Source: Crossaster papposus
Lineage: Eukaryota > Echinodermata > Asteroidea > Velatida > Solasteridae
Assembly: GCA_037893245.1 (NCBI GenBank)
Contig: JBAIAA010000598.1
Coordinates: forward strand, 310,001-374,000
Length of the DNA: 64,000 nt
Reading direction: 5' to 3'
Below, one piece after another: positions 7,260 through 54,752 of the stretch. The notes below the pieces were generated by a model. That model was given only the letters and a program-made list of their open reading frames with translations. It did not search any database and had not been told where the DNA came from. Every line of letters begins with the position of its first letter. Position 1 is the stretch's first letter. The translations under genes and the position numbers were made by a program.

Positions 7260-8162
7260 TGTTGTGTGGAAATAAAGTAACATGATGAAAATATGGGGAC
7301 AGGAACTCCTGCCAGTTGTACGTTTAGACGATGCCATGGCCCTTCTCTGTGCCAACAACTCGTGGCACATTTACCCCCTTCACCGAGCTTGACCGTACCA
7401 CTTCTTCTAAGTCAGCCAAGCAGCTGACCATGGTTCTGCGGTACCTCTGCTTTACTAAGCCAAAACACCAATCAGGGGCAAATTTGGTGTGTCCGGCAAT
7501 CATAAAGTTCACGGTGATGGACTTATGTAACCTTGTCATTGCTCTCCAGGCAAAATACCACATTACGTATTTGTTTTTATTTTGCCCTCCACAGTTGTCA
7601 CAGTGTAAGTGTACCTGTTCTTCCCCGAGACCAAAGTTCTCAAAGAAGTCGTGCAAATAGCTGATGACGGCATTTGACCCCTTGCCAACCGAAACACCTT
7701 CGTCTATTAGGTAGTTGGCCTGTTGAGGGATTGCTTCACAGCACACTCCAAAGATCCCACACTTTCTAGGACACAGAAAGTACATGGGCCCAGGCTGAAG
7801 GGGGTCACTTGGATAGTGGACTTGCTGGGCAAAGTCAAATGCATAATGCATTTGACCAGGTCTGCTGCAGGCATCATTGCGGCCGAGCTTCTCCCCTTCG
7901 TTGACTGCTCTCTTAGCCTCCTCTACCATGTTGCGGTACAACTCCCTCTCCATGTAGACCAGACGCAGATGCTCCTCTTGGCATTGAAGGCGTTGGAGTT
8001 TCTGGTCCTCTGGCAAATTGGCGCTGCGGTACACCCCGTTGTTATTTTGTTGACATTGCCAACACAAGTCACTCATTGGTTTTGTTGTTAAGATGAAGGG
8101 TGTGTATCTTCTCCACATCTTTGTGAAGGTTGATCGCCTCGCAACCCTGTATTCTGGATCTC
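7260..8162 (-). pseudogene. DUF7869-like (RNase H-fold, transposase-derived) core exon with an in-frame stop
   Basis: The acceptor TTTTCACAG (8163-8171) opens a frame that starts D-P-E-Y-R-V-A-R-R and includes a Cys pair (LCWQCQQ), CPRKCGIFGVCCE, and the hallmark HCDNCGGQNKNKYVMWY, then HTKFAPDWCFGLVKQ and GTEKGHGIV. The Asp of DNCGGQNKN is the presumed catalytic acidic residue of an RNase H-like fold. The frame hits TAA at 7324-7326 yet continues in the same frame with TYNWQEFLSPYF, so the stop is a later nonsense change. The exon then runs into the transposon block at about 7260. The gene is nested antisense in the host intron. It could be a transposon or a domesticated gene that has died. 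Confidence 0.7.
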
Positions 8163-8464
8163 CTGTGAAAATAAAGCAATTTTTTTTTTCATTAAACAAT
8201 TTAATGAATTATTAACATCAGACCTTTAAAATCGCGGCGTGAATAACATCAATTACATGTACAGGGTATGTTTCTCAATTTTTTTTTTAATTAACCCTAA
8301 CTCCCTAGGGTGTGTGCAAAATCATATTGATTTCGGAGGATTGAGGACTGTAGGGTTAAAAAAATTAAATAAAACGAATATCAATGCAAATAACAACAAC
8401 AACATTGTTTACTCGTGTATGCAAGAGGTCTATAAACCCCAAACAGAAATAAACAACATTCTAC

Positions 8465-15879: not shown

Positions 15880-16295
15880 TGCTGAAAATGTGATGGAGTA
15901 TATTAAAAATGATTTAATTAAATATATTCTGGTCGAAAAGATTTTTATAAATAATGCTCTGGATATGGCAGGATCCCTGATGTTTTGAATCTCAAGATGG
16001 AAATTGCTGAAATTTGCCAAAGTGTATGCTCTGTGATCAAAATGTTTGGTAGAATATACATTAAAAAAAAATATATATATATATATAACAGTTTGGTTAA
16101 ATAATGCCCTGGATATCGAAAAAGCCTTGGTGAATTGTAACGCAAAATGGAATTTACTGAAATTGATGATTGATAAGTTTGTTTCTTTACAACTTTGGTT
16201 CCGGACAAATAATCCGAAGAGCGTTTGGAGCTAATATCCCAAGGTGGGATTAGTGGAATGGTGATTAAACATATTGGCCTTTGTCCTGTTGATAA
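15880..16295 (+). repeat. D-repeat copy 1, left half, split by the Gypsy element
   Basis: It matches the tandem D-repeats at 31494-32527 (ATCCGAAGAGCGTTTGGAGC, CCCAAGGTGGGATTAGTGG, ATATTGGCCTTT). It stops at GATAATA where the LTR begins and resumes at 25445 with ATAATAAACTGTTT. The uninterrupted copy at 31860 reads CATAATAAACTG, so this is a clean empty-site comparison for the LTR insertion. The TSD ATAA is at 16292-16295. Confidence 0.8.
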
Positions 16296-17275
16296 TGTAG
16301 TAACCTCCGCGAGGGGCAGGGGTTGGGTGGAGTCTCGTTATCAACTCCGAGGAGGGGAAGTGATCCCGGGTTCCGAGCAAGAAGAAACGAAGAGTCTTGA
16401 GACACCGGTGTATCCCCAAAATCTACTGGTTTATTACGAGACTGAGATCCATGGGACACAAAGTCAACCAACATGCAACAGCGACGAATACAACTTATAC
16501 AGATGTGTACGGGGAAAACCCCGGAAAGACCCCTACGAGAGAAAAATGCACAAAACTAGTTCATGAATTTATCCCTCACATACATTTTATGAATACAATT
16601 ACACTTTGATGAAATACACTATTTAAAGTGAGTTACACTTTAACCTTAAATTTATCTCACAAAATACATGTAATAACAGGTCCGGCCGCCCACACTCACC
16701 CAACACTGGAGGGTTTCAGAACAACCTATGTCCCACGGCCGGTGTGTATGCAGGCTAGCAGCCCCCTGCCTGATGTACTATCTAAAAGCCCTGTTTATGC
16801 TGCATACGAAACAGAAAACTTTTCGTGACACACAGCACAAACCACACAGTGGAGCGATTAGGAAAGTGTATTACAAATGTATCAATTTCACCCGCCGCTC
16901 AGCCGAGCCAACACACTGCGTGCACAACAGCCAACAAAAGCAACGTGTATTCCACGCGCAAAATCATGTGCACTGAAAGCGATGAATTTCGACGGTCACG
17001 ACCCAAAATTACAAGCTAAAATATTCCATAATCGGTTCCTACCCAAGCCATAAAGTGTATAATCTCGATCCCCAATAAGTATGCCTTCAGGTGATATACA
17101 TATGCCCACCAAGATCTCCTCAGAGAGTATTTTATGAAAGGTTTTCTCACCGAGAGCCATCCAGGTCGAGGCCTAGTCTGTTCCAGCTCAGTTGGAAAAG
17201 GACCGCTGCAACACAGTAAGACGCAAGGGCGCCCTCTGGCCAATAAGGCGATAAATAAAATTACACACCACTACA
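16296..17275 (-). repeat. Gypsy 3' LTR (980 bp)
   Basis: It is a direct copy of 24460-25444 with TG..CA ends, lacking one TTGGG unit relative to the other LTR. The outer border abuts the ATAA target duplication (16292-16295). Confidence 0.95.
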
Positions 17276-17291
17276 TGTTCCCTGCTTTAAA
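17276..17291 (-). other. Polypurine tract of the Gypsy element
   Basis: Read on the minus strand the bases just before the 3' LTR are purine-rich (AAAGCAGGGAACA). They sit where plus-strand priming is expected. The match is modest. Confidence 0.45.
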
Positions 17292-17668
17292 GTCATACGA
17301 CCTCGGATGATCCCACTGAAAATACCATGTTCCTATCATGTGCACCCTTCATCATCATACCCTTATTTACAAAATGATTAAACCGTCTACATTAAACTCT
17401 CGGTCATCACACAATTCACTTTACCATTAAACAACTCGGGTGTAAACGCATAACAAGAGAACACTAACCTTTGTGAATACATCAATATGTAAATTGCATA
17501 CACTCATACAAAATGCCAGCATGAAGCCGGTTAAATTTAACAATGAAACACTGAATCAACAATGTGATGAACGGGTCATGTTAGAGCGGCAGGCACTGAT
17601 TACAAATCTCCCAGCTGGGAGCAAGGCACAGTGCCCGCCCCCCTGAAAAATACATATATACATATGTC
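17292..17668 (-). other. Untranslated spacer between the SGNH ORF and the 3' LTR
   Basis: It has no open frame of note and belongs to the internal region of the Gypsy element. Confidence 0.5.
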
Positions 17669-18271
17669 TTAACGCGAACAATAACGCATGACCACCTCTC
17701 TAATCTGGCGAATATATCTGGCCATTCCTTCTGCATTAAGGTGGCACCCATCGATCATGTACCTGGGAAGATTCACTCTCCTCTGAGATACCAGACATAC
17801 CCGAGGTGCCCTTCCAGCCAGCTCCGTGCCGAGCATCATATTAAAGCGCCTGACTCGGTGATTCAACGTTTGTAGTGAGACCTGGTTCGGCCTGCGCAAC
17901 GCCGACCTTTGGATCACGGAAAATAGCACAATGCGCCTCGGCTGGATACCGTGCACCGCAAGCGTGTCCAAGAACCTCAAAGCTCTCTCAACCACTACCC
18001 TGGGGGTTGCGTTTTCGGCACAAAGATCGTTTGTTCCCAGGTCGATGCATAACAGATCGATTCGATCCAAAGCCACCATCTTTCTCAAGTAACGTTGGGG
18101 TGTCTCGAGAACCCTATCATATGTTAACCCTGGGTGCCCCTCCACTAATACCGTGTACCCTTCGGTGATACCCATTAAGTCATTTAGTGACACGCGGTGT
18201 GAGCGTGCCTCCCTGGCAAGCCTTGCTACGAACGAATGGCCGTATATGTAAACCACTTGTTTCTCCGCCAT
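17669..18271 (-). CDS. SGNH/GDSL hydrolase-like protein encoded in the env position of the Gypsy element
   Basis: This is a 200-residue protein from the ATG at 18271 (the open frame extends to 18403). SGNH blocks are in order (residues counted from 18403): VVYIYGHSF with the nucleophile Ser57 (GHS for GDS), a block II Gly at VEGHPG, IDLGTNDLC with Asn125 of block III, and IDGCHLNAEG with Asp218 and His221 of block V. Predicted activity is an esterase or acetylhydrolase with unknown substrate. No signal peptide or transmembrane helix is visible, so it is not a classical Env. A strong acceptor lies 2 bp upstream of the ATG, suggesting a spliced subgenomic mRNA. SGNH domains are known from CR1 ORF1 and Ngaro/DIRS-type elements (by recall). 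Presence in Gypsy would be unusual. It is uninterrupted. Confidence 0.8.
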   Translation of the reverse strand: MAEKQVVYIYGHSFVARLAREARSHRVSLNDLMGITEGYTVLVEGHPGLTYDRVLETPQRYLRKMVALDRIDLLCIDLGTNDLCAENATPRVVVERALRFLDTLAVHGIQPRRIVLFSVIQRSALRRPNQVSLQTLNHRVRRFNMMLGTELAGRAPRVCLVSQRRVNLPRYMIDGCHLNAEGMARYIRQIREVVMRYCSR

Positions 18272-18290
18272 GCCTGTACAAAATAAACTC
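18272..18290 (-). promoter_or_regulatory. Candidate 3' splice site ahead of the SGNH ORF
   Basis: Read on the minus strand, GTTTATTTTGTACAG|GC ends two bases before the hydrolase ATG. A T-rich tract plus CAG is a good animal acceptor. Placement before a third ORF mirrors the spliced env mRNAs of retroviruses and gypsy. The donor has not been identified. Confidence 0.5.
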
Positions 18291-18544
18291 GCTTGACTAG
18301 TGAGCTGATGCAAAACTGTGCACGACACCTCGGATGGACGGGGAGGGATATTTTCTCTGTCCTGCAACGTACAAAATAAACATGTTAAGTCCCACAGAGC
18401 CATTAATACCCAAAAATATGAAACACGTCAGGGTTTATAAAACATAGTTACGTCCCTAATTAGGTCTCATCATGGAGGTGGTGAGTACACCAAGTATCCC
18501 GTACATTGCACAGGCAATCCTCCAACACTTCACAGACTGCTGAA

Positions 18545-21500
18545 TTAGGTTATAGCGGAAGGCCAGCGCCCGAATCGATTCTTAGCTCTTAGCCGCTCAG
18601 AACGCCTCAGGCCTTCATGCGCCCCTGTCAGTGCGCTAGGTCCATCACTCAAAGGAGGGACGGCCTCGGCTGGGGTCTTGCTACCACCATCCGTCACGGT
18701 TATAGGAGTCTGGTCACTGGGAACTTGTACAACCACAAATTCCTCCTCTGAAGAATGTGAGTCACTGGACTCATCATCAGATTCCTCTGAAAATCCTGCA
18801 CAAGGCAAGTCACGCCAAATCTCCACTTCACCTTCCGTGCATAGGTCTGCCTCTCGAGGGTCGAGGATCAGCAGCTTTCGGTTGACTACTCTCTCGCTAC
18901 CCCCCAAAACCGGTCGAATGGTCACCACATCCTGCTCTGGGTTGCATCTGACCACAACATGTGGTGTCTCATCAAACTGGTCACTTAATTTATGCCTGCC
19001 TTTAAATGCACAATTTTTGACCAAAACTCTGCTGCCTACTTGTAGTTTCTGGATAGGCTTACACTTGGCATCGTAGTACCGCTTGTTAGCCTCAGCCGCG
19101 CCAATCAGGCGGTCTTTTGCAACCTTATAGGCCTGCTTCAACAGCTCAGCTTGCCGTTGCACATACTCCTCATTCAGGTCATGCTGCACATTGCCGACTA
19201 AATGGTCTATCGGGATGATTGGCTCCCGTCCAAAGAGAAGGGTCCATGGAGCAACCCCTGTCACACTATGTGGGGTGGTGTTGTACATATGCACAAGGTG
19301 GGGAAGGAGTTCGGGCCACCTCCTCCGGTCCCTCCCATCCAGGGATCTGATTAGGGAGCAGAGGGTTCTATTGAACCTCTCTGTCTGCCCGTTACCCTGG
19401 GCGTGGTATGGGCTTGTCCGAGTTTTTCGAATCCCGTACAGTTTACAGAGTTCCCTAACCAGATTGCCCTCAAAATTCCGACCCTGGTCGGAATGGACCT
19501 GAAGGGGCACTCCGTAGTGACTTATCCAGTTCTCCACAAGGGCTCGAGCAACAACAGGTGCGGTTTGGTTCCTACAGGGAACCGCTAATGCATACTTCGT
19601 AAACGCATCTGTCATAATCAACACGTCCTCGAACCCCCCACGGCCCCTATCAAGCTTCAAAAAGTCGATGGCCAGGCGTTCCATTGGTCGGAATGCCAAC
19701 AGGTGTCGCATAGGTGGCCGTATAGTCGGGGTTGGTGCCTTGGAGACAACACATCGCAAACACTTCTGAATATGCTCGCGGACATGGCCCGACATGCCTG
19801 GCCAAAAACACCTTAACCTCAACAGGGCAAGGGTCCTATTGATGCCTTGGTGCCCCCAATTGTCATGAACAGCTTCCAGCATACTACCCCTCAAGCATTT
19901 TGGAGTGAAGATCTGGAAGACATCACCCAGAGCTGAATCCTTGTAGGTTCTATAAAGAACTCCATTTCTCTCCACGATTGAAGACCACTCCTTCGTCCAT
20001 CCATTCACACCTGGTACTGGTAGACAGTCTTCGGTTTGACCCGGTCTCCATCCATTTGACCATCGCCTCCAAACCACTCGCAGCTGCTCGTCTGCCTTTT
20101 GCATTAAAGCAAGTTCACTGCATGAATACGAGGGCAGCACCGCTGAAGCTTGGTACCCTTGATCACCATCAGTGGGGTCATGATCACTGGACCCGTCCGT
20201 TTGGCTATTGGTCTGTAATGCACGGCGCACTTCGACTGGGACAGACGTACACATGACTATATCGTGCATAACTCTAACCGTATCAGCAGACTCTAAATTC
20301 AAAGGACACCGACTGAGCGCATCTGCGCATTTGTTGGTCCGCCCACTTCGAAACTTCACCTGCATGTCGAATGGAGCCAGTTGCGCAACCCACCTTTGCT
20401 CTGTTGCCCCTAACTTAGCATTCTGGAGATGGGCAAGGGGATTGTTATCTGTATACACGGTGAAACGGGCTCCTAGCAGATAATCCCGGAGTTTCTCTGA
20501 GACGGCCCACTTAAGAGCCAGCAATTCAAGCTTGAAGCTTGATAGGTCACTGTAGCACTTTTCTGCACCGCGCAACCCGCGACTTGCAAAGACAATCGGG
20601 TGTACAGCTCCATCATCCCCGACTTGAGCCAAACAGGCACCTAGACCTCTGAGTGATGCGTCAACTTCAACTATGAACTCTCTATCGAAACGTGGGTAGG
20701 CCAACACGGGAGTGCAACATAATTTAGCCTTAAGCTTCTCGAACGCTTCGTCTGCTTCCTTGGACCAGTGAAAGCCCTTCGTATGGTTCCCTGCTTTTTC
20801 GCTTGCTTTGGCCGTCAGGCTATGTAGGGGTGCAGCAATAGCCGCAAAGCCGGCAATAAAACGGCGGTAATAAGCCGCCAGACCTAAGAAAGAGCGCAAC
20901 TCCTCCCTGCTTTTTGGTGTGGGCCACCTAGCGATCTTGTCTATCTTATCACTGTTCACTGATACCCCCGACTCTGACACAACATGTCCTAGATATTTCA
21001 CCTGCCTCCTAAACAGGTCACACTTTGCACCCTTCAACTTGAGGCCATTTTGTACCAATCGGTCGAAAACCACACCCAACCTCGTCAAATGCTCCTCAAA
21101 GTCCTTCGAGTGCACCAATATATCGTCGAGGTAGAGTACAACCTGCGACAGATTAAGGTCCCCAAAAATACGCTCCATGGTCCTCTGGAAGGTTCCAGGA
21201 CTATTACTAAGTCCCATGGGTAACCTCGTAAACTCAAACAATCCCCAGGGGACTCGAAAAGCCGTCTTCTCTATCGATTCCTCGTGCATTGCCACTTGAT
21301 AATATCCATGGGACAGATCCAAAGAGGAGAAGTAACGGGCACCGCCTAAGGCCTCCAATGTCTCCTCAATCCTTGGAAGGGGGAAGGCGTCTTTCACTGT
21401 CAACCCATTCAGTTTCCTATAGTCTATGCACAAGCGAATAGACCCATCCCGCTTGCGAACTAACACCACGGGGCTAGCATACGGGCTAGTGGATCTTCGT

Positions 21501-22828
21501 ATGACCCCCTTGTCGAGTAACTCTTGGAGCATTCGCTGGACCTCTGGCATAAGATGTGGTGCGATCCGCCTATATGGCAAGCTCACTGGCTTCCCATCAA
21601 CGAGGTGTATTTCGTGGGGGATGAGGTCACACTTCCCAACATCCCATGATCCCTTGGAAAACGCCGCGTCATATTTCTGAATCAATGCCGCTACTCGGGT
21701 GGCTTCACTGGGGTTCAATCCTTTGAGACTTAGACCTGGGGGCAGCTGGTACTCCGTTCCATCTGGTAAGGTGAAACTCTCCTGCACAGCCTCTGATTGA
21801 TCTTTACACACCCCGTTGGGGTTCTGATCAACAGCTGCAGGACAATTTAACATATGAGAGCCCGGAGTGTCCTCTATACTCCCTTTCTCAAGAATCACCT
21901 CATCCACGGATACCCTAATATCCCCCTGCACAAGTTGAAGGCTAACTTCCTCCAACATGTCAGCCTCTCTGACAACCGCCAACTTCACACCCGCCGGCAC
22001 CGTAACCGGTTGGCCACCACGATTGCACACCAGTACATCCATTGAGGGCCCAGCTTGTATTCCCTCGACTATACTCCAGTTTTGAATACCAGGGAAAATC
22101 CCGTCATCTGAGCTGAGAGGTGATGCGGGACACCCCTCCACTACGACACAACTTCCTCGTGGTATCACTACCTTGGCATCCACCTTACAGCTTACTAACA
22201 TAGCTGTACAAGGGGGGATGACCTCCGTCTGCAGTGCGTGCACTTCACCCACAGTTCTTTGTGCTACGGTGTCCCTTCTCTCCTTACCACGTGACCGCTG
22301 TGCGTCAACCCACTGAAAAGCTGTCTCCCACTCACTCCCATGCAGTCCAGATGGCTTCGTCTTCAGAGCAGACAATGCTCTCAGAATATTACAACCAATT
22401 ATAATTGGGAACTCCTCCCGTCTATCTAGCTTTTCACTTGACTGTGTCGAGCGAACTAGAAAATGGGCCTTAATTTTCTTGCCAAGAACAACTATGTCCG
22501 TACTCAAATATCCATGAATTGGAATCTCAAGATCGTTGGCCCCTACAATTCTCACCAAATTTCCGACTGCGCCCAATTTACCTAACTTAGCTGCCAAGTA
22601 CTTCTGATAAAAGGGGAAACAAATTAGTGATGTCTCAGCCCCTGTGTCTAGGATACAGTTGGCTGTTACCCCACCTATTTCAACCTCCGCTGTGGGGCTT
22701 GCCGCAATCAATTTATCACGCAAATTATCGACAGCCCCCACCCCCTTCTCTAGGCTTATGTCAGCACCTGACAGATTGCTTGCAACCCCAACCGTAGGCG
22801 CAGCCTGCACCTCCGTCATCTCGCCCAC
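18545..22828 (-). CDS. pol: Gypsy pol: protease, reverse transcriptase, RNase H, integrase
   Basis: An uninterrupted 1427-codon frame. The aspartic protease motif LDTGAETSLI is near residue 60. RT has SPVVLVRKRDGSIRLCIDYR and the catalytic YLDD (near 564). RNase H begins at VDASLRGLGA and includes YTDNNPL. Integrase has the HHCC finger (H-x4-H with CLRC, about 995-1035), then a D,D-35-E core with AIDF, HSDQGRNFEGN and GQTERFNR (near 1054, 1113, 1144). It ends with an Arg-rich tail (RRSERLRAKN); I see no chromodomain. The first codon listed is GTG and the frame is open upstream in the -1 frame over the end of gag. Synthesis is most likely by frameshifting at the GGGAAAC site at 22846-22852. 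Confidence 0.95.
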   Translation of the reverse strand: MGEMTEVQAAPTVGVASNLSGADISLEKGVGAVDNLRDKLIAASPTAEVEIGGVTANCILDTGAETSLICFPFYQKYLAAKLGKLGAVGNLVRIVGANDLEIPIHGYLSTDIVVLGKKIKAHFLVRSTQSSEKLDRREEFPIIIGCNILRALSALKTKPSGLHGSEWETAFQWVDAQRSRGKERRDTVAQRTVGEVHALQTEVIPPCTAMLVSCKVDAKVVIPRGSCVVVEGCPASPLSSDDGIFPGIQNWSIVEGIQAGPSMDVLVCNRGGQPVTVPAGVKLAVVREADMLEEVSLQLVQGDIRVSVDEVILEKGSIEDTPGSHMLNCPAAVDQNPNGVCKDQSEAVQESFTLPDGTEYQLPPGLSLKGLNPSEATRVAALIQKYDAAFSKGSWDVGKCDLIPHEIHLVDGKPVSLPYRRIAPHLMPEVQRMLQELLDKGVIRRSTSPYASPVVLVRKRDGSIRLCIDYRKLNGLTVKDAFPLPRIEETLEALGGARYFSSLDLSHGYYQVAMHEESIEKTAFRVPWGLFEFTRLPMGLSNSPGTFQRTMERIFGDLNLSQVVLYLDDILVHSKDFEEHLTRLGVVFDRLVQNGLKLKGAKCDLFRRQVKYLGHVVSESGVSVNSDKIDKIARWPTPKSREELRSFLGLAAYYRRFIAGFAAIAAPLHSLTAKASEKAGNHTKGFHWSKEADEAFEKLKAKLCCTPVLAYPRFDREFIVEVDASLRGLGACLAQVGDDGAVHPIVFASRGLRGAEKCYSDLSSFKLELLALKWAVSEKLRDYLLGARFTVYTDNNPLAHLQNAKLGATEQRWVAQLAPFDMQVKFRSGRTNKCADALSRCPLNLESADTVRVMHDIVMCTSVPVEVRRALQTNSQTDGSSDHDPTDGDQGYQASAVLPSYSCSELALMQKADEQLRVVWRRWSNGWRPGQTEDCLPVPGVNGWTKEWSSIVERNGVLYRTYKDSALGDVFQIFTPKCLRGSMLEAVHDNWGHQGINRTLALLRLRCFWPGMSGHVREHIQKCLRCVVSKAPTPTIRPPMRHLLAFRPMERLAIDFLKLDRGRGGFEDVLIMTDAFTKYALAVPCRNQTAPVVARALVENWISHYGVPLQVHSDQGRNFEGNLVRELCKLYGIRKTRTSPYHAQGNGQTERFNRTLCSLIRSLDGRDRRRWPELLPHLVHMYNTTPHSVTGVAPWTLLFGREPIIPIDHLVGNVQHDLNEEYVQRQAELLKQAYKVAKDRLIGAAEANKRYYDAKCKPIQKLQVGSRVLVKNCAFKGRHKLSDQFDETPHVVVRCNPEQDVVTIRPVLGGSERVVNRKLLILDPREADLCTEGEVEIWRDLPCAGFSEESDDESSDSHSSEEEFVVVQVPSDQTPITVTDGGSKTPAEAVPPLSDGPSALTGAHEGLRRSERLRAKNRFGRWPSAIT

Positions 22829-23859
22829 TACGACGAAGGTGGGGCGTTTCCCGAAACATTCTGTTCCGTTTTGGCCGCATGTGTCTTGTATGGCTCCCTA
22901 TCCCTACACTGTTTTGCATAGTGGCCCGGCCTCTTACAGTTATGACAGATAACCGCAGATCGGTCATAACTTCTAGGCGCTAGCGCCTTGTCCAACTTTT
23001 CGCTCAAAACTGAGGTTAACTGTGCCAACTGGGCAGTAGTTGCAGCTTGCTGCTGCCCAAGTACATCTAACTTTTGAACAACCAACTTGTTCGACGCTAC
23101 AAGTTGGGTCAAAATGTCATCTGTCATGCTTGAATTCGAAGCAACCTGAACGTTGACCTGTTCAGGGTCACGCATGTCTGCTACCTCCCTAATTTTGTTC
23201 TTACGCGCAGCCTCTTCCTGATCTGGCAGTACAGCAAGTACATGCTCCCTGAGCTTAAAGAACGACAACTCGGGTTTTTCAACCAACAATCGCCGCAACT
23301 CTCTCCGCGCACTCATGTCTCTTGCGCCATTTACAAATTGCTCCTTAAGCACACGGCCTCGCATCAGGCGCAAGGCATCACGTTCCGGGCCTTCAGCCGC
23401 CTGCTCCATACGATCATGAAACCGCATTATAACCCGGCTAAAATCTGCCAGTGACTCTTCCGGTAATTGTTTCCGCGCATACAGTGCACTAGTCAGCGAG
23501 GACACGCTTTCGGAGGTGCCAAATCTGTTACTTAGGAGGGTGATTACCTTTGGTAGGGTGTCCCTTTCATCCTGGGGCGCGCATAGTATTTCCTCTTTTG
23601 CTATTCCGCCCAAGTGGTCCACAAATTCCCCAACTTGTCTATCACCCTCGAGCCCTAACTGCCGCGAATAACGGTCAAATTCCTCAAGCCATTCGTTTAT
23701 GGTCAAATCCCCAGGCTTGCGAGGGGGCCCACAGAACTTCACCAGACTAACCTTTGGGGTTGGTGTGATTTTCAAATTTCCAAAAGCATTCGCCAACGTC
23801 TGTGCTAAGGCCTCGTTAGACCTTGTGATTACTTCACCCAAAGCTTCTGGTAAGGCCAT
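22828..23859 (-). CDS. gag: Gypsy gag (capsid and CCHC nucleocapsid)
   Basis: A 343-residue protein. Residues about 40-220 look like a Ty3/Gypsy retrotransposon Gag capsid domain (KFCGPPRKPGDLTINEW, then a helical region with FVDHLGGIAKEEIL and LADFSRVIMRFHDRM). A single zinc knuckle CHNCKRPGHYAKQC lies at 305-318. The protein should assemble particles and bind element RNA. The ATG at 23859 is the first in a clear frame, about 600 nt from the 5' LTR. It ends at TAG 22828-22830, overlapping pol in the -1 frame. The product lacks breaks, supporting a young copy. Confidence 0.92.
   Translation of the reverse strand: MALPEALGEVITRSNEALAQTLANAFGNLKITPTPKVSLVKFCGPPRKPGDLTINEWLEEFDRYSRQLGLEGDRQVGEFVDHLGGIAKEEILCAPQDERDTLPKVITLLSNRFGTSESVSSLTSALYARKQLPEESLADFSRVIMRFHDRMEQAAEGPERDALRLMRGRVLKEQFVNGARDMSARRELRRLLVEKPELSFFKLREHVLAVLPDQEEAARKNKIREVADMRDPEQVNVQVASNSSMTDDILTQLVASNKLVVQKLDVLGQQQAATTAQLAQLTSVLSEKLDKALAPRSYDRSAVICHNCKRPGHYAKQCRDREPYKTHAAKTEQNVSGNAPPSS
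22846..22852 (-). promoter_or_regulatory. -1 ribosomal frameshift site GGGAAAC
   Basis: The gag codons TCG-GGA-AAC contain G-GGA-AAC in the X-XXY-YYZ phase, and pol lies in the -1 frame. The gag stop is only 15 nt downstream. The same heptamer is the slip site known from the Gypsy-derived mammalian gene PEG10. A stimulatory structure was not assessed. Confidence 0.75.
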
Positions 23860-24004
23860 AACTGTATACTGTTACCGCGCAAAATTGAAAAAAAAATTCA
23901 AAAGCCAGAAAGGTCAATACCCGAGCCCAGAAAACTGTTTCAAGACACCCCAGCGCTTTAAACAAACACCCTTACCCTTGCAAAGTCACAATTACAACAA
24001 CAGA

Positions 24005-24036
<32 letters not shown>

Positions 24037-24459
24037 GTGTTCTTACAACCACGAGTACGCACGCTTTAAGTGCACAATTGCGAAAAAAAGAGCATCAACT
24101 TTCCATTTACAGGCACATTATTTTCTTCTTATTAAAACTGCAAACCAGCTCAGCTTTCCAACAATCACCAAAACCCTTACAATTTTCCAGGGATTCTGTT
24201 AACATTACTAACTCAGTACACCGCTACACCTACACCGGGGTTTTCTAATACAATTAGAATCCGACTTATGGCAATAAAATACACTTTATTTATGTTATAC
24301 AGTCAATGATGTCTGACAACAAAACAATGTGTCTTATTCACCACACTTCTCCATGTGTTGGGGGTCCACATAAAATTACAAGGAAAACAATTTACATGTA
24401 GTCAACAAATATAACCCTATATATTCTTGAATCTTCTCTATCCTGTCTACGACGCCACT
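23860..24459 (-). other. Gypsy leader, including primer-binding site and a long A-run
   Basis: Directly inside the 5' LTR the minus strand reads AGTGGCGTCGTAGACAGGAT (24440-24459), the expected position of the primer-binding site. I cannot name the tRNA. A run of about 26 T at 24010-24035 (A on the element strand) lies between it and gag. No ORF. Confidence 0.6.
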
Positions 24460-25444
24460 TGTAGTAACCTCCGCGAGGGGCAGGGGTTGGGTTGGGTGGA
24501 GTCTCGTTATCAACTCCGAGGAGGGGAAGTGATCCCGGGTTCCGAGCAAGAAGAAACGAAGAGTCTTGAGACACCGGTGTATCCCCAAAATCTACTGGTT
24601 TATTACGAGACTGAGATCCATGGGACACAAAGTCAACCAACATGCAACAGCGACGAATACAACTTATACAGATGTGTACGGGGAAAACCCCGGAAAGACC
24701 CCTACGAGAGAAAAATGCACAAAACTAGTTCATGAATTTATCCCTCACATACATTTTATGAATACAATTACACTTTGATGAAATACACTATTTAAAGTGA
24801 GTTACACTTTAACCTTAAATTTATCTCACAAAATACATGTAATAACAGGTCCGGCCGCCCACACTCACCCAACACTGGAGGGTTTCAGAACAACCTATGT
24901 CCCACGGCCGGTGTGTATGCAGGCTAGCAGCCCCCTGCCTGATGTACTATCTAAAAGCCCTGTTTATGCTGCATACGAAACAGAAAACTTTTCGTGACAC
25001 ACAGCACAAACCACACAGTGGAGCGATTAGGAAAGTGTATTACAAATGTATCAATTTCACCCGCCGCTCAGCCGAGCCAACACACTGCGTGCACAACAGC
25101 CAACAAAAGCAACGTGTATTCCACGCGCAAAATCATGTGCACTGAAAGCGATGAATTTCGACGGTCACGACCCAAAATTACAAGCTAAAATATTCCATAA
25201 TCGGTTCCTACCCAAGCCATAAAGTGTATAATCTCGATCCCCAATAAGTATGCCTTCAGGTGATATACATATGCCCACCAAGATCTCCTCAGAGAGTATT
25301 TTATGAAAGGTTTTCTCACCGAGAGCCATCCAGGTCGAGGCCTAGTCTGTTCCAGCTCAGTTGGAAAAGGACCGCTGCAACACAGTAAGACGCAAGGGCG
25401 CCCTCTGGCCAATAAGGCGATAAATAAAATTACACACCACTACA
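24460..25444 (-). repeat. Gypsy 5' LTR (985 bp)
   Basis: It is near-identical to 16296-17275, differing by one extra TTGGG near 24487. The outer edge is followed by the ATAA duplication at 25445-25448. Confidence 0.95.
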
Positions 25445-25640
25445 ATAATAAACTGTTTACAATTGTCTTTTAGTAAAAGATGTTACTGGGTAGATTTATA
25501 CCAGACAGATTTATATTTGAGATCGAAATTTTCAAGCCCTCTTAACTTATTAGATGATATCCTGACAGATAATCCGAAGAGCCAAGAGGGTTACAATCTT
25601 GAGTTGGGATTGTCACAGCTGAATTTAGGCAGGTGCATTT
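25445..25640 (+). repeat. D-repeat copy 1, right half
   Basis: It continues the D-repeat interrupted at 16295 (AATAAACTGTTTACAATTG, then ATTTATACCAGACAGATTTA and CCAAGAGGGTTACAAT), matching 31860-32020. Confidence 0.8.
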
Positions 25641-26967: not shown

Positions 26968-27681
26968 CTAATTATATGGATGTGAATCAAGAAGATAGAA
27001 TTTCAGCTTTTTAACAAATATAGAGAGGGAGTTTGATGATTTTAGGGACTCGTCTAAGCTATTCCAATATAAAGTGCCACGCTGAAAAACACTATTTTTA
27101 CACAACTCTGTTCGGCTAAACTGGACATAAAAATTGTTCTTGGCAGTACTTCGGGTATTATACAAATGAATGTCAGAGGTTAACATGAAGAATGAATTAA
27201 AACAACGGGGTAATACATTGGTTTTAAATTTATACATCAATTTGCCTAAATTAAAATAGTACAGGTCATTAAACTGTAAAAGACTCAGGTTTGTAAATAA
27301 AGGAAGGGAATGATCACGACAGCCAGCTTTTGATACTATTCGGACTGCTCGTTTCTGTAAAGTAAACAGTTTGTTGTATTTAGATGAACCCCCCCAAGTC
27401 AAGATTGAATAATTTAAATATGGCAAAACAAAAGAATTATACAGAGTTAACAAGATTCTACTGGGCAGGTAATATTTTAGACGGTTCATTATGCCAACAT
27501 TTTTAGATATTTTTGTCGCTATGTCATCAATATGGTTTCTCCAGGTGAGATGCTCATCCATAGTTATTCCTAGGAATTTAGTAGTTGTTACTTGGTTTAG
27601 CCTTGATTCATTTAAAATTAGAGGAACAGATTGAGAATATTTATACTGATGGGCACAGAAAATCATATAGTTAGATTTCAA
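26968..27681 (-). pseudogene. LINE ORF2, RT C-terminal region
   Basis: The frame reads TTTKFLGITMDEHLTWRNHI, PYLNYSILTWGGSS, a basic LQKRAVRIVSKAG and a YNTRST region to the stop. This is the thumb and C-terminal part of CR1/L2-type RT ORFs. It is shifted by one frame relative to the endonuclease part and lacks the catalytic block upstream. A homologous stretch is at 5292-5893. Confidence 0.85.
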
Positions 27682-27704: not shown

Positions 27705-29540
27705 CTAAGAGCCATTATGATCGATCGCATTACATATTTTACTGAGAACATATGATGTTGATAAATCAGTTGACCGGTTTTGTCTGAAGCCAAATTGTGC
27801 CTCCGAAAGAATATCATTCTTATTAATAAAAGATATTAACCTAATGTATATGAGCCTTTCAAATAACTTGGAGAATGTCGACAGAACTGAAATTGGTCTA
27901 TAATTAGTAATATCATGTTTACAACCTTTTTTGTAGATTGGTATAACTTGGGCTATTTTTAAGCCATCGGGAAATACTCCTGCTGTTAGACATTTATTAA
28001 AGATAATAGCTAAAGGTTTTGCTAACGAATACCTTGCCTGTTTTATTACAAAAGAATTCAAACCGTCGAAACCAGGAGCCTTGCCAGAAGGAATTTTGTT
28101 AATATTGTCCACAATCTCCTCTTGGGTAATAGGTGACAAGAAGAATGAATCCGAACATCGAGTATTTAAAAATGAATGAAAAGAGGTGTTACATAATGGT
28201 AGTCCACTAGAAAGACTGCTGCCAATATTAACAAAATAGTTGTTAAATGAATCAGCAATTTCGGTGTCGTTCGTAATGTTGATGCCATCATGGTTAAAAT
28301 AGGAGCTACTATTTTGTTTACGCTTATTTAAAAGAGAATTAATTACATTCCACGTACCTTTTATATTATTTTTTACTTCATTGAATTTTTTATATAGATA
28401 ATTCTTTTTGGATAATTTAATCAGAGAGTTAAGTTTATTTTTAAAGCTAGTATAAGTAGATTTATTTCGCGGAGTAGGGTTTTTCAAATACTTTTTGTAC
28501 AAGTGATTCTTACGCCTTATCGAGTTATAAATACCATTAGTTAACCATGGGGATTTGAGTTTATCATAGCGACATTTTACCTCGTGCAGAGGAAAGTTTT
28601 TATTATAAAGTTGTTTGATATGTAATAAAAACGTATCATACATACTGTGGATATCGTTTATAGAAGTTATACAATCCCACTCAGTATCATTCAAGTCATG
28701 AATAAAATTATCAACATTACTGTGGTTAAAGTCACGCTTTTTACATTTACTATCCGGTCGGACTTTTTCAGTAAGGTTTTCAATAATTACAAATATGGGA
28801 AGATGGTCACTAATATCAGTGGACAAAATACCAGCAGGTTGGTCTTGATAAACATTGGTAAAAATATTATCAATAAGTGTTGCACTATCATCAGTAATCC
28901 TGGTTGGTTTGTCTATGGTGGGAAAAAATGAATGAGATAAAAGGGTATTCATGAATGTTTGTACGCTATTATCAGTATCATACTCCAGTAAGTTTATATT
29001 AAAATCGCCCAAAATGTAACACTTTTTGTTCTCGCTGTCTATATGTGACAGAACTGTATCAGTACATTCAATAAAGTCAGTACATGATATGCAGGGTGGC
29101 TTATAAACAATACCAATGATAATATTTGCCTTACCGGTATTAACAAGTTCAATAAAGCATGATTCAATATCAGGGTTATCAAAACATAGGTCAGTACGGT
29201 TTATATAAACTAAATCCTGTTTTATATAAAGTGCAACACCACCACCTCTTTTGTTTTGTCTACAAGTACCTTCAATAACATAGTTTGGTATTTGTATCAA
29301 AGGGTCTTGTATATCCGTTAACCAGGTTTCCGATATTCCAATAACTGTAAAACTATTTTGTAAAAGATTCAGGTATTGAATAATGCTTGATATATTTCTA
29401 GGTAGACTACGAGCATTTAAGTGCAGCAGCTTCGTACCAATGTAACTTTTAAAATTATCCAAAAATTCATCCTGATCATAGTAATTACAGTTATTGTCAG
29501 GAATATGAAAATTTAAGTCTGGGTCGATATTAGAGTTCAT
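27705..29540 (-). pseudogene. LINE ORF2, apurinic endonuclease and N-terminal RT
   Basis: The APE-type endonuclease has Asn42 (LLHLNARS), Glu71 (ISETWL), GGVALYIK, YILGDFNINLL (Asp179, Asn181) and ISDHLPIF (Asp245, His246), so all catalytic positions are present. RT begins at IPSGKAPGFDGLNSFVIKQ and continues through IPIYKKGCKHDITNYRPIS and EAQFGFRQNRSTDLS before a stop at 27705. The rest of the palm, including the metal-binding YADD box, is absent from this copy. The break is an internal deletion of roughly 140 codons joined out of frame. Confidence 0.88.
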
Positions 29541-42512: not shown

Positions 42513-43034
42513 TTGACAGGTCCCGTGTGGATCGTTGGGGATTCCCTCATTCGCTGGGTAGCGCAGCCTTTGGATCCCAATATCACTGTGTTGTGGCAAG
42601 GCAAAACGGGTGCCGGGCTAAACGATCTTCCTGAATTACTACACAGTATGCAAGGGCCCCTTCCTTCCGTTATCATTGTACATTTGGGTTCAAATGACCT
42701 GGGCAATATTGATTTTTTCTCGATGCGACAACGCGTTGTGATTTTCATGCAGTTTTGTAGAAATGCATATCCAGATACACTTTTGATCTGGTCCGAAATA
42801 CTCCCCAGGGCGTTCTATTACGGGGCCAATCCCCAGGACAGTATGGACAGGCAACGGCGAGCAGTTAACCGCTGGGCAAGGTCCCGCTGCGGCAGATTGG
42901 GGCAATCAGTTTAAATCACCCCCAAATCATTCGAACCCATTTTCACTTGTATAGGCAAGATAGGGTGCATCTTTCACCCGCTGGCAATACAATTTTCAGG
43001 GAAAATTTTCAGTCGGCCATTCGACACTTTATGT
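42513..43034 (+). pseudogene. SGNH hydrolase domain of a YR-retroelement type, frameshifted
   Basis: The first frame has block I VWIVGDSLIRW, a TGAGLNDLPELL Gly block, block III VIIVHLGSNDLG and LLIWSEILPRAFYYGA, then stops at 42912. Block V (DRVHLSPAGN) follows in another frame (around 42962-42991) and ends FMstop near 43034. All catalytic residues Ser, Gly, Asn, Asp and His are thus present across a frameshift near 42900. IHLGxNDLG with VWSxILPR is the pattern I recall from SGNH domains in fish and amphioxus Ngaro-like elements. No recombinase or RT is next to it. It is a different subfamily from the Gypsy SGNH protein. Confidence 0.7.
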
Positions 43035-51278: not shown

Positions 51279-51311
51279 TAGACTGACGAAGGAAAACAGG
51301 TGAAGTTTGGC

Positions 51312-54300
51312 ATGTTTTTGAGGAAAACGAGTGGCCTGGGGGCCGACTCGCCATGCGGCGAGGAGGCCGGCCAAGGGATGGGCCCGGGAAGCGGGGCTCA
51401 GACTACGGAGGGGTCCGGCGGACAAGGGATCACGCCGGGGGACCTGGAGGCTTTCTTTAGGGATGTACCGGAAAATTCTGGGGGGGCCATGGGGTCCTGG
51501 GAGTCGGGTTGTTTTGTGGGAGAGGAATTGGGGGATGAGAGCGGGGATTTTGGAGACATGGACAAAGGGCCGGGAGGTGGCAAGGCGTCCACTCCGATTT
51601 GGAGTGAGGGCGCCCTCACCCATGACCGGTCCGGAGTCCCAGTCGAGTTTGGGAAGGGCCCGGCCCGCGCAGCGGAGGGCGGCGCGGCAGACGGTGTGTT
51701 CCCCACGGGACGTTCCCGGGCCGCGTCCGCCGATGCGGCGGGGGCGGGGCCACGTGAAAACTGTTCCCAAGGGTCTGAAAATAAGAGTACCGAGTACCGG
51801 GGGGGCCCGGCCCGTGCCGTAGATGGCGGCGCGACCGATGGGTTGCGTCATACGGAGCGACCCCAGGTTGTTGCCGGCGGTGCGGCGGGGGCGGGGCCCT
51901 GTTGGGGCAGTTTCGGGGCCTGCCAGGCCACCCCAGAGTGTTTCCGGTCCAGGGGGGGCCCGCACAGGAGCGAAGGGGGCGGGGCGGCCGGGGGGTCGTT
52001 CCAATCGGAACGCCCGCGGGCCAGATCCGCCGGAAGCAGTGGAAGGGAACACTCGAGACTGCTACTCACGAGGGGGCGGGGAGCGGAACCAGTGGAGCTG
52101 CTCCTCACAGGGAGCAACGGGACGAGGCTGCTACGCACACGAGGCAACGGGTCAGAACAGCCGGAGCTTCTGCTCGTGGGGACCAACGGGACGGAGCTGC
52201 TCCGCGCACAGGGGAATGGAGCGGAGTCGTCGGAATTGCCCCGCGCGCAAGCGCATGGAGCGGAACCGATGGAGTTGCTCCGCACACGACTCAGCGGGGC
52301 GGAGTTGCTGCAGCTGCTCCTCACACGACCGGACGGGGCGGAGCTGTTGGAACTGCTCCGCGCGCATCCCAATGGAGCGGAGCCGACGGGGCTGCTCCGC
52401 GCACGACTCAACGGTGCGGAGCAACCGAGTTCGCTCCTCACACCTCCCTACGGAGCGGAGCAACCAGGATTGCTCCTCACGCAAACCAATGGAGCGGAGC
52501 CGTCGGCACTGCTCCGCATGGGGGTCAATGGAGCAGAGCTGCTCCGCACACAAACCAATGAAGCGGAGCCGTCGGCACTGCTCCGCATGGGAGTCACTGG
52601 AGCGGAGCTGCTCCGCGCACAAGCCAATGGAGCGGAGCCGTCAACGCTGCTCCGCACACAAGTCAATGGAGCAGAGCTGCTACGCGCACAAGCCAATGGA
52701 GCGGGGCCGTCAACGCTGCTCCGCACACAAGTCAATGGAGCGGAGCTGCTCCGCACACAAACCAATGGAGCGGAGCCGTCGGCACTGCTCCGCATGGGAG
52801 TCAACGGAGCAGAGCTGCTCCGCACACAAGCCAATGGAGCGGAGCCGTCGGCACTGCTCCGCATGGGAGTCAATGGAGCGGAGCTGCTCCGCACACAGGA
52901 ACCAATGGAAACGGGAGGCCGAAGACCGTTGATGCTCCCGGATAGGTTTGATGGGGTCTCGTCTTGGTCGGACTACTTGATCCATTTTGAGAGCGTCGCG
53001 GCGGTCAACCATTGGAGTGAGTCCGAGAAGGCGATGTATCTGGCGGCTCACCTGAAGAGCACAGCTCTGGAAGCACTGGCAGATATGGCGCCAGAGGCAC
53101 GGGGGGAATTCTCCTCTATCTTGGAGAACTTTGATCACCAGTTCGGCGTGACGGCACAGGTCCCATTACATCGGGCCCAGTTGTCCATGCGGACGAGGGG
53201 CCGCGACGAGTCGCTCAGCAGCCTGGGACATTCTATTCGGCGGCTGGTGCTAAAAAGCTACCCAAGGTTCCCTGCGCACGCCCGGGAGGACTTGGGCGTA
53301 GAGGCGTTCCGGAGGGCCTTGGGGGAGGAACAGCTGCAGCGTCACCTGTTCTCCCGGAAGGCGGCAACCCTGACCGAAGCAATCACGCTCGCAACCGAGA
53401 TGGAGGCGTTCATGAAGTCACAGGAGTACATGTATAGCCGAAAAAGGAAGACCGGAGCCAGAGACGTGATGTCGGTAGGGAAGCTTCCTCCAGTTTCTGC
53501 TGCAGAGCCTGAGTCGGTTCCCCAGGTGGAGTACAAACCTAACGCGCCGGCTCAGGTGGAGTGCTACAGGTGCCACGAGTTTGGCCACTTCAGGAGAGAC
53601 TGCCCCCGCCGGAGGGGAAGAGCCAGCCCCCCGCCGCCCCAGCCTGGGGCCGAAGGAGTGCTGAGACCGCCTGTTCCTGGACCGACGGGTCAAGCCAGGC
53701 CAGCCCCGCAAGGGGACATGGGTGACCAGACGGACGAGGAGGAACTACCACCGGCATTGACAGAGGCGGAGGCGTCGCCACCAATTGCGAAGGCGGATGC
53801 CGCCCCTGAAGGGCAGGTTGAGACGGGTGCAAAACCGGGTCCGGGGCTAGGCGAGCACGAGGCGGGGTGCGATCGGCCACCTTCTCCACCGACGGAACCA
53901 GACGCCGGGAGGTATACTCGTGCCGGCCGGAAGGTAGTCCGGCCTAGCCGATATTGTATTGCGTTAACCAAACTTCCTTCCCTCCGCAGGAGGGCTCCCG
54001 TGATGTGCCCCCACTGTGGGAAGGCTTTCACCCGCAGCAGCAACCGCCGCAGACACATCCTTACTGCGTGCGAGAAGCTCCACGCGGAACGCCCGTACGC
54101 GTGCGAACGGGGCTGCGGAGTGCGGTTCTACCGAGACGATATCCGGGGACGTCACCATCGGTACTGCCGGGAGGGGCTGGTGGCCGGGGTGATGGCGGAG
54201 ATGGACGCCCTAGAGATTCATCCCAGCGACGACGAGATAGAGCTCATCAATCCCGCCGGCCGAGGACCTTCTCCGCCTCGCCTCTCCCGACAGGAGAGCC

Positions 54301-54752
54301 CCGACCTTTCCCACGGCAGGCGGGATCACCCAGCCGCTGCCAGTCCCGCGTCAACGCCCCCGGCCAAGAGACGACGGGGCCCAGTTCCAGCGGGAGAGCC
54401 GGGGAACCACCTCCACTCGGAGCGGCCCTCCCGGCCTCCTCGCACGAAACAGGACGAGTCGGCCAGCCAGCCAAGCCAGGACCAGGAGAGGCTACCTCGG
54501 CGCCCCCGGGCCGTTGGTCAGGACAACGGGGACACTGACACCGCTCTCGCCACCCAGAAGGAAGCAGCACCGCCAGACTCTCCCCGCCAGCTCGGGCAGA
54601 AGGAGGGACGCAGACGGAGCTCCAATGGCGTGGGCAGCCCTGATTCTTGCCGGCCGGGTGTCGGGTGGAGCTACCGGACGGGACCTGGATGCGTTTGGAC
54701 AGGGACGGTGTCATCCGGCGGCCACCTCCCACCTCCTAGACGGGAACTTTAA
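51312..54752 (+). CDS. Gag polyprotein with repeats, CCHC knuckle and C-terminal C2HC/C2H2 zinc fingers
   Basis: About 1146 residues from the ATG at 51312, uninterrupted. Order: Gly/Ala/Arg-rich N-terminus with three longer repeats (GGPxR..GGAAxG), residues 100-250; a 10-13-residue tandem repeat NGAELLRTQ / NGAEPSALLRMGV (250-535); a Gypsy-type Gag capsid domain starting LPDRFDGVSSWSDYLIHFES (540-705); the knuckle CYRCHEFGHFRRDC (750-765); a Pro-rich linker; GRYTRAGRKVVRPSRY, which resembles the C-terminal tail of Gypsy integrases; then CPHCGKAFTRSSNRRRHILT and CERGCGVRFYRDDIRGRHH zinc-finger motifs (about 897-952); and a basic, Pro-rich end. It likely assembles particles and binds nucleic acid. 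Integrase tail without the enzyme suggests an old pol deletion. Confidence 0.85.
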   Translation: MFLRKTSGLGADSPCGEEAGQGMGPGSGAQTTEGSGGQGITPGDLEAFFRDVPENSGGAMGSWESGCFVGEELGDESGDFGDMDKGPGGGKASTPIWSEGALTHDRSGVPVEFGKGPARAAEGGAADGVFPTGRSRAASADAAGAGPRENCSQGSENKSTEYRGGPARAVDGGATDGLRHTERPQVVAGGAAGAGPCWGSFGACQATPECFRSRGGPHRSEGGGAAGGSFQSERPRARSAGSSGREHSRLLLTRGRGAEPVELLLTGSNGTRLLRTRGNGSEQPELLLVGTNGTELLRAQGNGAESSELPRAQAHGAEPMELLRTRLSGAELLQLLLTRPDGAELLELLRAHPNGAEPTGLLRARLNGAEQPSSLLTPPYGAEQPGLLLTQTNGAEPSALLRMGVNGAELLRTQTNEAEPSALLRMGVTGAELLRAQANGAEPSTLLRTQVNGAELLRAQANGAGPSTLLRTQVNGAELLRTQTNGAEPSALLRMGVNGAELLRTQANGAEPSALLRMGVNGAELLRTQEPMETGGRRPLMLPDRFDGVSSWSDYLIHFESVAAVNHWSESEKAMYLAAHLKSTALEALADMAPEARGEFSSILENFDHQFGVTAQVPLHRAQLSMRTRGRDESLSSLGHSIRRLVLKSYPRFPAHAREDLGVEAFRRALGEEQLQRHLFSRKAATLTEAITLATEMEAFMKSQEYMYSRKRKTGARDVMSVGKLPPVSAAEPESVPQVEYKPNAPAQVECYRCHEFGHFRRDCPRRRGRASPPPPQPGAEGVLRPPVPGPTGQARPAPQGDMGDQTDEEELPPALTEAEASPPIAKADAAPEGQVETGAKPGPGLGEHEAGCDRPPSPPTEPDAGRYTRAGRKVVRPSRYCIALTKLPSLRRRAPVMCPHCGKAFTRSSNRRRHILTACEKLHAERPYACERGCGVRFYRDDIRGRHHRYCREGLVAGVMAEMDALEIHPSDDEIELINPAGRGPSPPRLSRQESPDLSHGRRDHPAAASPASTPPAKRRRGPVPAGEPGNHLHSERPSRPPRTKQDESASQPSQDQERLPRRPRAVGQDNGDTDTALATQKEAAPPDSPRQLGQKEGRRRSSNGVGSPDSCRPGVGWSYRTGPGCVWTGTVSSGGHLPPPRREL
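52080..52915 (+). repeat. In-frame coding minisatellite GGAGCGGAGCtGCTCCGCAC
   Basis: Alternating 30- and 39-bp half-units (GCGGAGCTGCTCCGCACACA and GCGGAGCCGTCGGCACTGCT..) fill about 0.8 kb. Units become more alike toward the 3' end. Each unit is internally palindromic (GAGCnGCTC), so all frames stay open on both strands, which creates many shadow ORFs. Confidence 0.88.

Follow-up and report, generated by a model that had tools for sequence, protein, structure and literature searches.

A long-standing third gene for a putative SGNH hydrolase in Gypsy retrotransposons of Crossaster papposus

A stretch of 64,000 nucleotides from the echinoderm Crossaster papposus (GenBank assembly GCA_037893245.1, contig JBAIAA010000598.1, positions 310,001 to 374,000; hereafter the window, to which all coordinates refer) was found to carry a complete Gypsy-type retrotransposon on its minus strand (16296-25444), with a gene for a putative SGNH hydrolase behind pol. 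Judged by the anatomy of the element and by conservation throughout its clade, this is almost certainly a long-standing third gene of an animal Gypsy clade. An old auxiliary gene encoding a soluble, membrane-acting enzyme is the preferred overall explanation and is given a probability of about 0.5. Within a single genome the gene is tied to one Gypsy clade over at least 11 SGNH clusters, is constrained and shares the deepest split of pol; it is apparently an older and broader variant of the kind of enzymatic third gene already described in the Vesta elements of bdelloid rotifers. The question of why a retrotransposon needs an esterase becomes open to testing, both through comparison and through work on a single small soluble protein.

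The open reading frame (ORF) at 17669-18403 is open on the minus strand and encodes 244 residues when counted from the upstream methionine; a plus-strand reading was rejected (13 stops). Homology begins at an inner methionine (18271), which is invariant in nine of nine aligned sequences, and the gene is accordingly given as 17669-18271 (200 codons plus stop) on the evidence of homologues, predicted fold and genomic copies. The open 5′ extension (18272-18427) lacks protein-level conservation among close relatives in the same alignment. As the earlier note on this DNA had claimed, the set of SGNH blocks is complete, with GHS (Ser13), Gly48, GTND (Asn81) and DGCH (Asp174, His177). The Pfam match to Lipase_GDSL_2 (E 1.1e-6, 29.7 bits) lies under the curated cut-off of 32.9, so the SGNH identity was settled by homologues and predicted fold: the model of the 200-residue protein has a flavodoxin-like SGNH fold, with sialate O-acetylesterases among its near-tied matches. 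A chance ORF was rejected in view of 94 homologues and eight near-identical genomic copies with the same frame open.

The protein is soluble and basic by prediction (isoelectric point (pI) 10.3, charge +13), and 61 of 62 relatives of 185-213 residues have a pI above 8. No membrane-like stretch was found in it (highest 19-residue hydropathy 0.84), and just two of these 62 relatives have a hydrophobic stretch within the first ~40 residues. Searches of IMG/VR and of phage records gave no relative, a single-sequence search of the PDB gave no match and a GTDB search gave two partial bacterial matches. A second SGNH-type ORF (42513-42914, plus strand; 133 residues, WIVGDSLIRW and HLGSNDLG; Lipase_GDSL_2 E 7.4e-5, under the cut-off) lies away from the Gypsy element and looks unrelated.

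The host genome (1.02 Gb, 1841 contigs) was searched for further copies. It yielded 91 SGNH matches, several of them fragments of one gene, and 44 loci besides that of the window were fetched. Nine copies, including the window, are at least 99% identical, and a 252-codon frame is open in each. A same-strand pol of this kind lies upstream in 37 of the 44 fetched loci (34/40 plus 3/4). When all fetched loci and the window are grouped at 85% identity, 13 SGNH clusters result, 11 of which contain a pol-linked copy. In the reverse direction, 30 of the best 33 pol copies (the 33 scored out of 7855 candidates) have a same-strand SGNH match 274-2916 nucleotides downstream, the longest gap belonging to a copy with a partial pol match only. 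In a control Gypsy lineage (query P0180), the best 30 copies (the 30 scored out of 7783 candidates) are all without an SGNH match in the surrounding 6 kb. Two of the three pol copies lacking a listed SGNH match (L055, L056) follow family L028 until ~99 nucleotides inside the SGNH gene and then continue as other sequence; they retain a weak SGNH remnant (hmmsearch E 1e-7). In L025, L026 and L043 the SGNH frame is interrupted or preceded by a stop.

SGNH and pol distances were compared over eight adjacent pairs with uninterrupted pol (r 0.93, reached by 84 of 20000 permutations). Most of this value stems from one deep split; the correlation with a shared deep split places the association before that split, and exchange on shallow branches may have taken place. 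In the same pairs SGNH identity is 30-56%, against 51-68% for the core from reverse transcriptase (RT) to integrase. Of the 111 variants found within families, 61 are replacements, a share below the 71% expected (p 2.7e-4, with variants treated as independent); this set comprised 33 copies in eight groups and left out L025, L026, L043, L046, L047, L048, L049 and L050. In two of the eight groups (L023/L024 and L019/L042) the replacement deficit is nil or very slight. Comparisons between families show saturated silent sites and a dN of 0.30-0.66. By these comparisons the SGNH gene is constrained, less so than pol. The earlier note had attributed the open frame to selection rather than luck and had expected related copies to carry the gene, and both expectations are borne out by the pooled variants and the pol copies. 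The outcomes that it had named beforehand as telling against its reading (no SGNH fold, or most related copies lacking the gene or having it broken with dN/dS near 1) were looked for, and none was the result. Its statement that the element "has recruited" an esterase holds as to the presence of the gene and understates its age, the gene being common to at least 11 pol-linked SGNH clusters.

The gene is probably a working part of these Gypsy elements, and its product may act as an enzyme. Several observations weigh against the preferred explanation. Seven of the 44 SGNH loci (L019, L042, L044, L046, L047, L050, L054) have no such pol upstream in the stretch fetched. One good pol copy (L057) has no significant SGNH match in ~1.7 kb downstream, so the gene may be dispensable. 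Among six pairs within one lineage the SGNH-pol correlation is weak (r 0.61, 1723 of 20000 permutations), and one family pair has seven replacements to one silent change. The catalytic set is conserved across relatives, but nine of 73 lack at least one of the five residues, and five conserved residues do not, as sequence, prove catalysis. A pI above 8 is also compatible with nucleic-acid binding. No conserved splice acceptor that might explain translation of the SGNH ORF was found ahead of it at the 11 loci tested.

Acceptor-like sites do lie upstream of the ORF in the window: two occur in the 5′ extension (first exon bases 18361 and 18273; window p 0.088). Splicing as a conserved feature was dropped, as only one of the 11 loci exceeded its own shuffles at 0.05; the strongest site of the 11, at L019, lies eight nucleotides ahead of the ATG. 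Read-through from pol was rejected on a reading of the pol-SGNH gaps, in which the frame offset varies between families.

The SGNH gene was compared with those of published elements. Vesta long terminal repeat (LTR) retrotransposons, absent from the earlier note's list of SGNH-bearing elements, carry a GDSL esterase/lipase as ORF3 (Rodriguez et al. 2017, PMC5408684; repeated in a 2017 review, PMC5718144), which is described as having intact catalytic residues and no transmembrane segment or coiled coil. The present element resembles Vesta, known here by that published description, in its gag, its pol, its SGNH/GDSL ORF3 with intact catalytic residues and its lack of a transmembrane segment or coiled coil (PMC5408684). 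It differs in several respects from what the same paper describes: Vesta has a dUTPase between protease and RT, whereas no Pfam match to one was obtained here at E up to 1, a degenerate domain being possible; LTRs of Vesta and other bdelloid families measure 159-551 bp, against 980-985 nucleotides; and GDSL clones of 1.3 kb compare with an SGNH gene of 0.6 kb. The Vesta authors regarded their gene as a recent acquisition with no significant departure from neutrality (PMC5408684), whereas the gene described here is old and constrained. The CR1/L2/RTEX ORF1 esterase ZfL2-1 is likewise a retrotransposon-encoded SGNH esterase for which membrane work has been proposed, but it belongs to a non-LTR element, lies upstream of pol in a gag-like ORF1 and has a coiled coil (PMC3905857). 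Ngaro-like tyrosine-recombinase retrotransposons share an additional SGNH ORF 3′ of the polymerase genes and differ by their recombinase, split direct repeats and lack of an integrase (PMC9210276). Among the matches listed from open-licence full text in PMC, to which the search was confined (Repbase and subscription papers being beyond its scope), there was no report of an SGNH-bearing Gypsy clade outside rotifers.

Errantivirus-type Gypsy elements carry env as their third gene, before the 3′ LTR. The element in the window shares with them a Gypsy pol and a third gene ahead of the 3′ LTR; its product differs in being a soluble protein with a predicted SGNH fold and no membrane stretch, not a membrane fusion glycoprotein. 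The earlier note took the SGNH protein to stand in for Env. In such a role the enzyme would act at the cell or particle surface during cell-to-cell passage, like viral hemagglutinin-esterases, as its env position and the sialate O-acetylesterases among the fold matches might suggest; the Vesta authors, too, formally left room for an env-like role and saw a possible part for their protein in crossing membranes (PMC5408684). The role is nevertheless disfavoured because membrane segments are lacking, both in the protein and at the N-terminus of nearly all relatives, and the absence of a transmembrane segment led the Vesta authors to consider an auxiliary role probable (PMC5408684). Replacement of Env is judged improbable, and an equally doubtful standing is given to a bolder scheme with one ancient acquisition, in which the SGNH gene would define a large clade of animal Gypsy elements and would have taken over part of the task of env, the soluble basic lipid-acting enzyme letting particles cross or leave membranes enzymatically rather than by fusion.

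The strong positive charge of the protein and of its relatives could also point away from membranes. The basic protein would then work on nucleic acid or nucleoprotein, for instance by binding RNA or removing acyl groups while particles assemble or in defence against silencing, and catalysis would be of secondary importance. Conservation of the complete SGNH catalytic set argues against this, as does the ZfL2-1 esterase, for which binding to oligo-A RNA was not seen (PMC3905857), and such a role is considered rather unlikely. A captured passenger or nested insertion, retained by chance in a young copy, would account for the SGNH loci outside this pol context, and open frames in the mostly near-identical copies of the window family are by themselves of little weight. 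It is very hard to reconcile with pol linkage in 11 of the 13 clusters, with the difference between this pol lineage and the control, and with conservation between families despite saturated silent sites. The auxiliary-enzyme explanation is preferred to these. According to it, the protein would be made separately as a soluble cytosolic enzyme, and its charge would draw it to anionic surfaces such as acidic phospholipids and possibly RNA. At host membranes it might cleave an ester or acyl bond, either in a lipid or in an acylated protein, and such hydrolysis could aid particle assembly, transport or release. The protein would thus serve as an auxiliary replication protein rather than an entry glycoprotein. 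The membrane mechanism itself is put forward tentatively.

The element is young and complete, as had been claimed. A 4-bp target-site duplication (minus strand TTAT, plus strand ATAA; 25445-25448 on the 5′ side, 16292-16295 on the 3′ side) flanks a 5′ LTR of 985 nucleotides (24460-25444) and a 3′ LTR of 980 nucleotides (16296-17275), which differ by no substitution and a single 5-bp indel; TG...CA ends and a short duplication are as in Gypsy/Ty3 elements. Two bases past the 5′ LTR lies a probable primer binding site (24440-24457), beginning with TGG and assigned by position. Gag (22828-23859; 343 residues, CCHC zinc knuckle, zf-CCHC E 1.1e-4) and the pol frame (18545-22897) are both open and overlap. 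A heptamer G GGA AAC (22846-22852) is in a phase suited to -1 frameshifting from gag to pol, which may take place there; the fold downstream is mildly unusual (z -1.56). Pol comprises a protease-like motif followed by the Pfam domains RT, RNase H and integrase (457-616, 688-820 and 976-1142), in the order of Gypsy/Ty3 (Metaviridae). The SGNH ORF lies 3′ of pol in identical orientation and ahead of the 3′ LTR, the position claimed for it, and a probable polypurine tract, AAAGCAGGGAACA, occupies 17276-17288. No further element-like sequence was found elsewhere in the window by blastn.

In other assemblies, three pairs of SGNH and pol proteins come from contigs above 100 kb of exactly equal size (764437, 2377792 and 3029036), where 0.0002 would be expected by chance; 94 SGNH proteins were compared with the 115 of 120 listed pol matches of known size. 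The three pairs form one group in both trees, a shared contig being no proof of adjacency. A fourth pair (SGNH P0009/pol P0118, 8049) was set aside as coincidence, since at least one such short match has a chance of ~0.23 and the trees disagree. Named pol sequences of one sea urchin and of two sea cucumbers also fall within the pol clade.

Several of the loci without pol were viewed individually. L019 and L042 form an SGNH family (DNA ~95-96% alike) with no pol within 5 kb upstream. L044 has a remnant like the C-terminal tail of pol ahead of the SGNH gene, plus long repeat-rich frames that by eye resemble 51300-54752 of the window, and is perhaps a pol-less derivative that retained the gene. 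That window frame (plus strand, 1150 residues) has NGAELLRTQ-type repeats together with CCHC-knuckle and C2H2-finger matches near the Pfam cut-offs; it resembles a gag and would belong to a further element of Gypsy type. The SGNH copies at L046, L047 and L050 lack the GHS block and lie within another repeat, ~98-99.7% alike between copies, parts of which resemble 41.0-41.5 kb of the window by eye. L054, the most distant match among the fetched loci (26%), lies beside two related ORFs starting MQSHTFV and is a different mobile context. In the window, LINE-type ORFs with endonuclease and RT domains (27705-29540 and 26968-27681, minus strand) adjoin the Gypsy element, and a 291-residue frame at 7324-8199 (minus strand) matches DUF7869 (E 1.1e-13).
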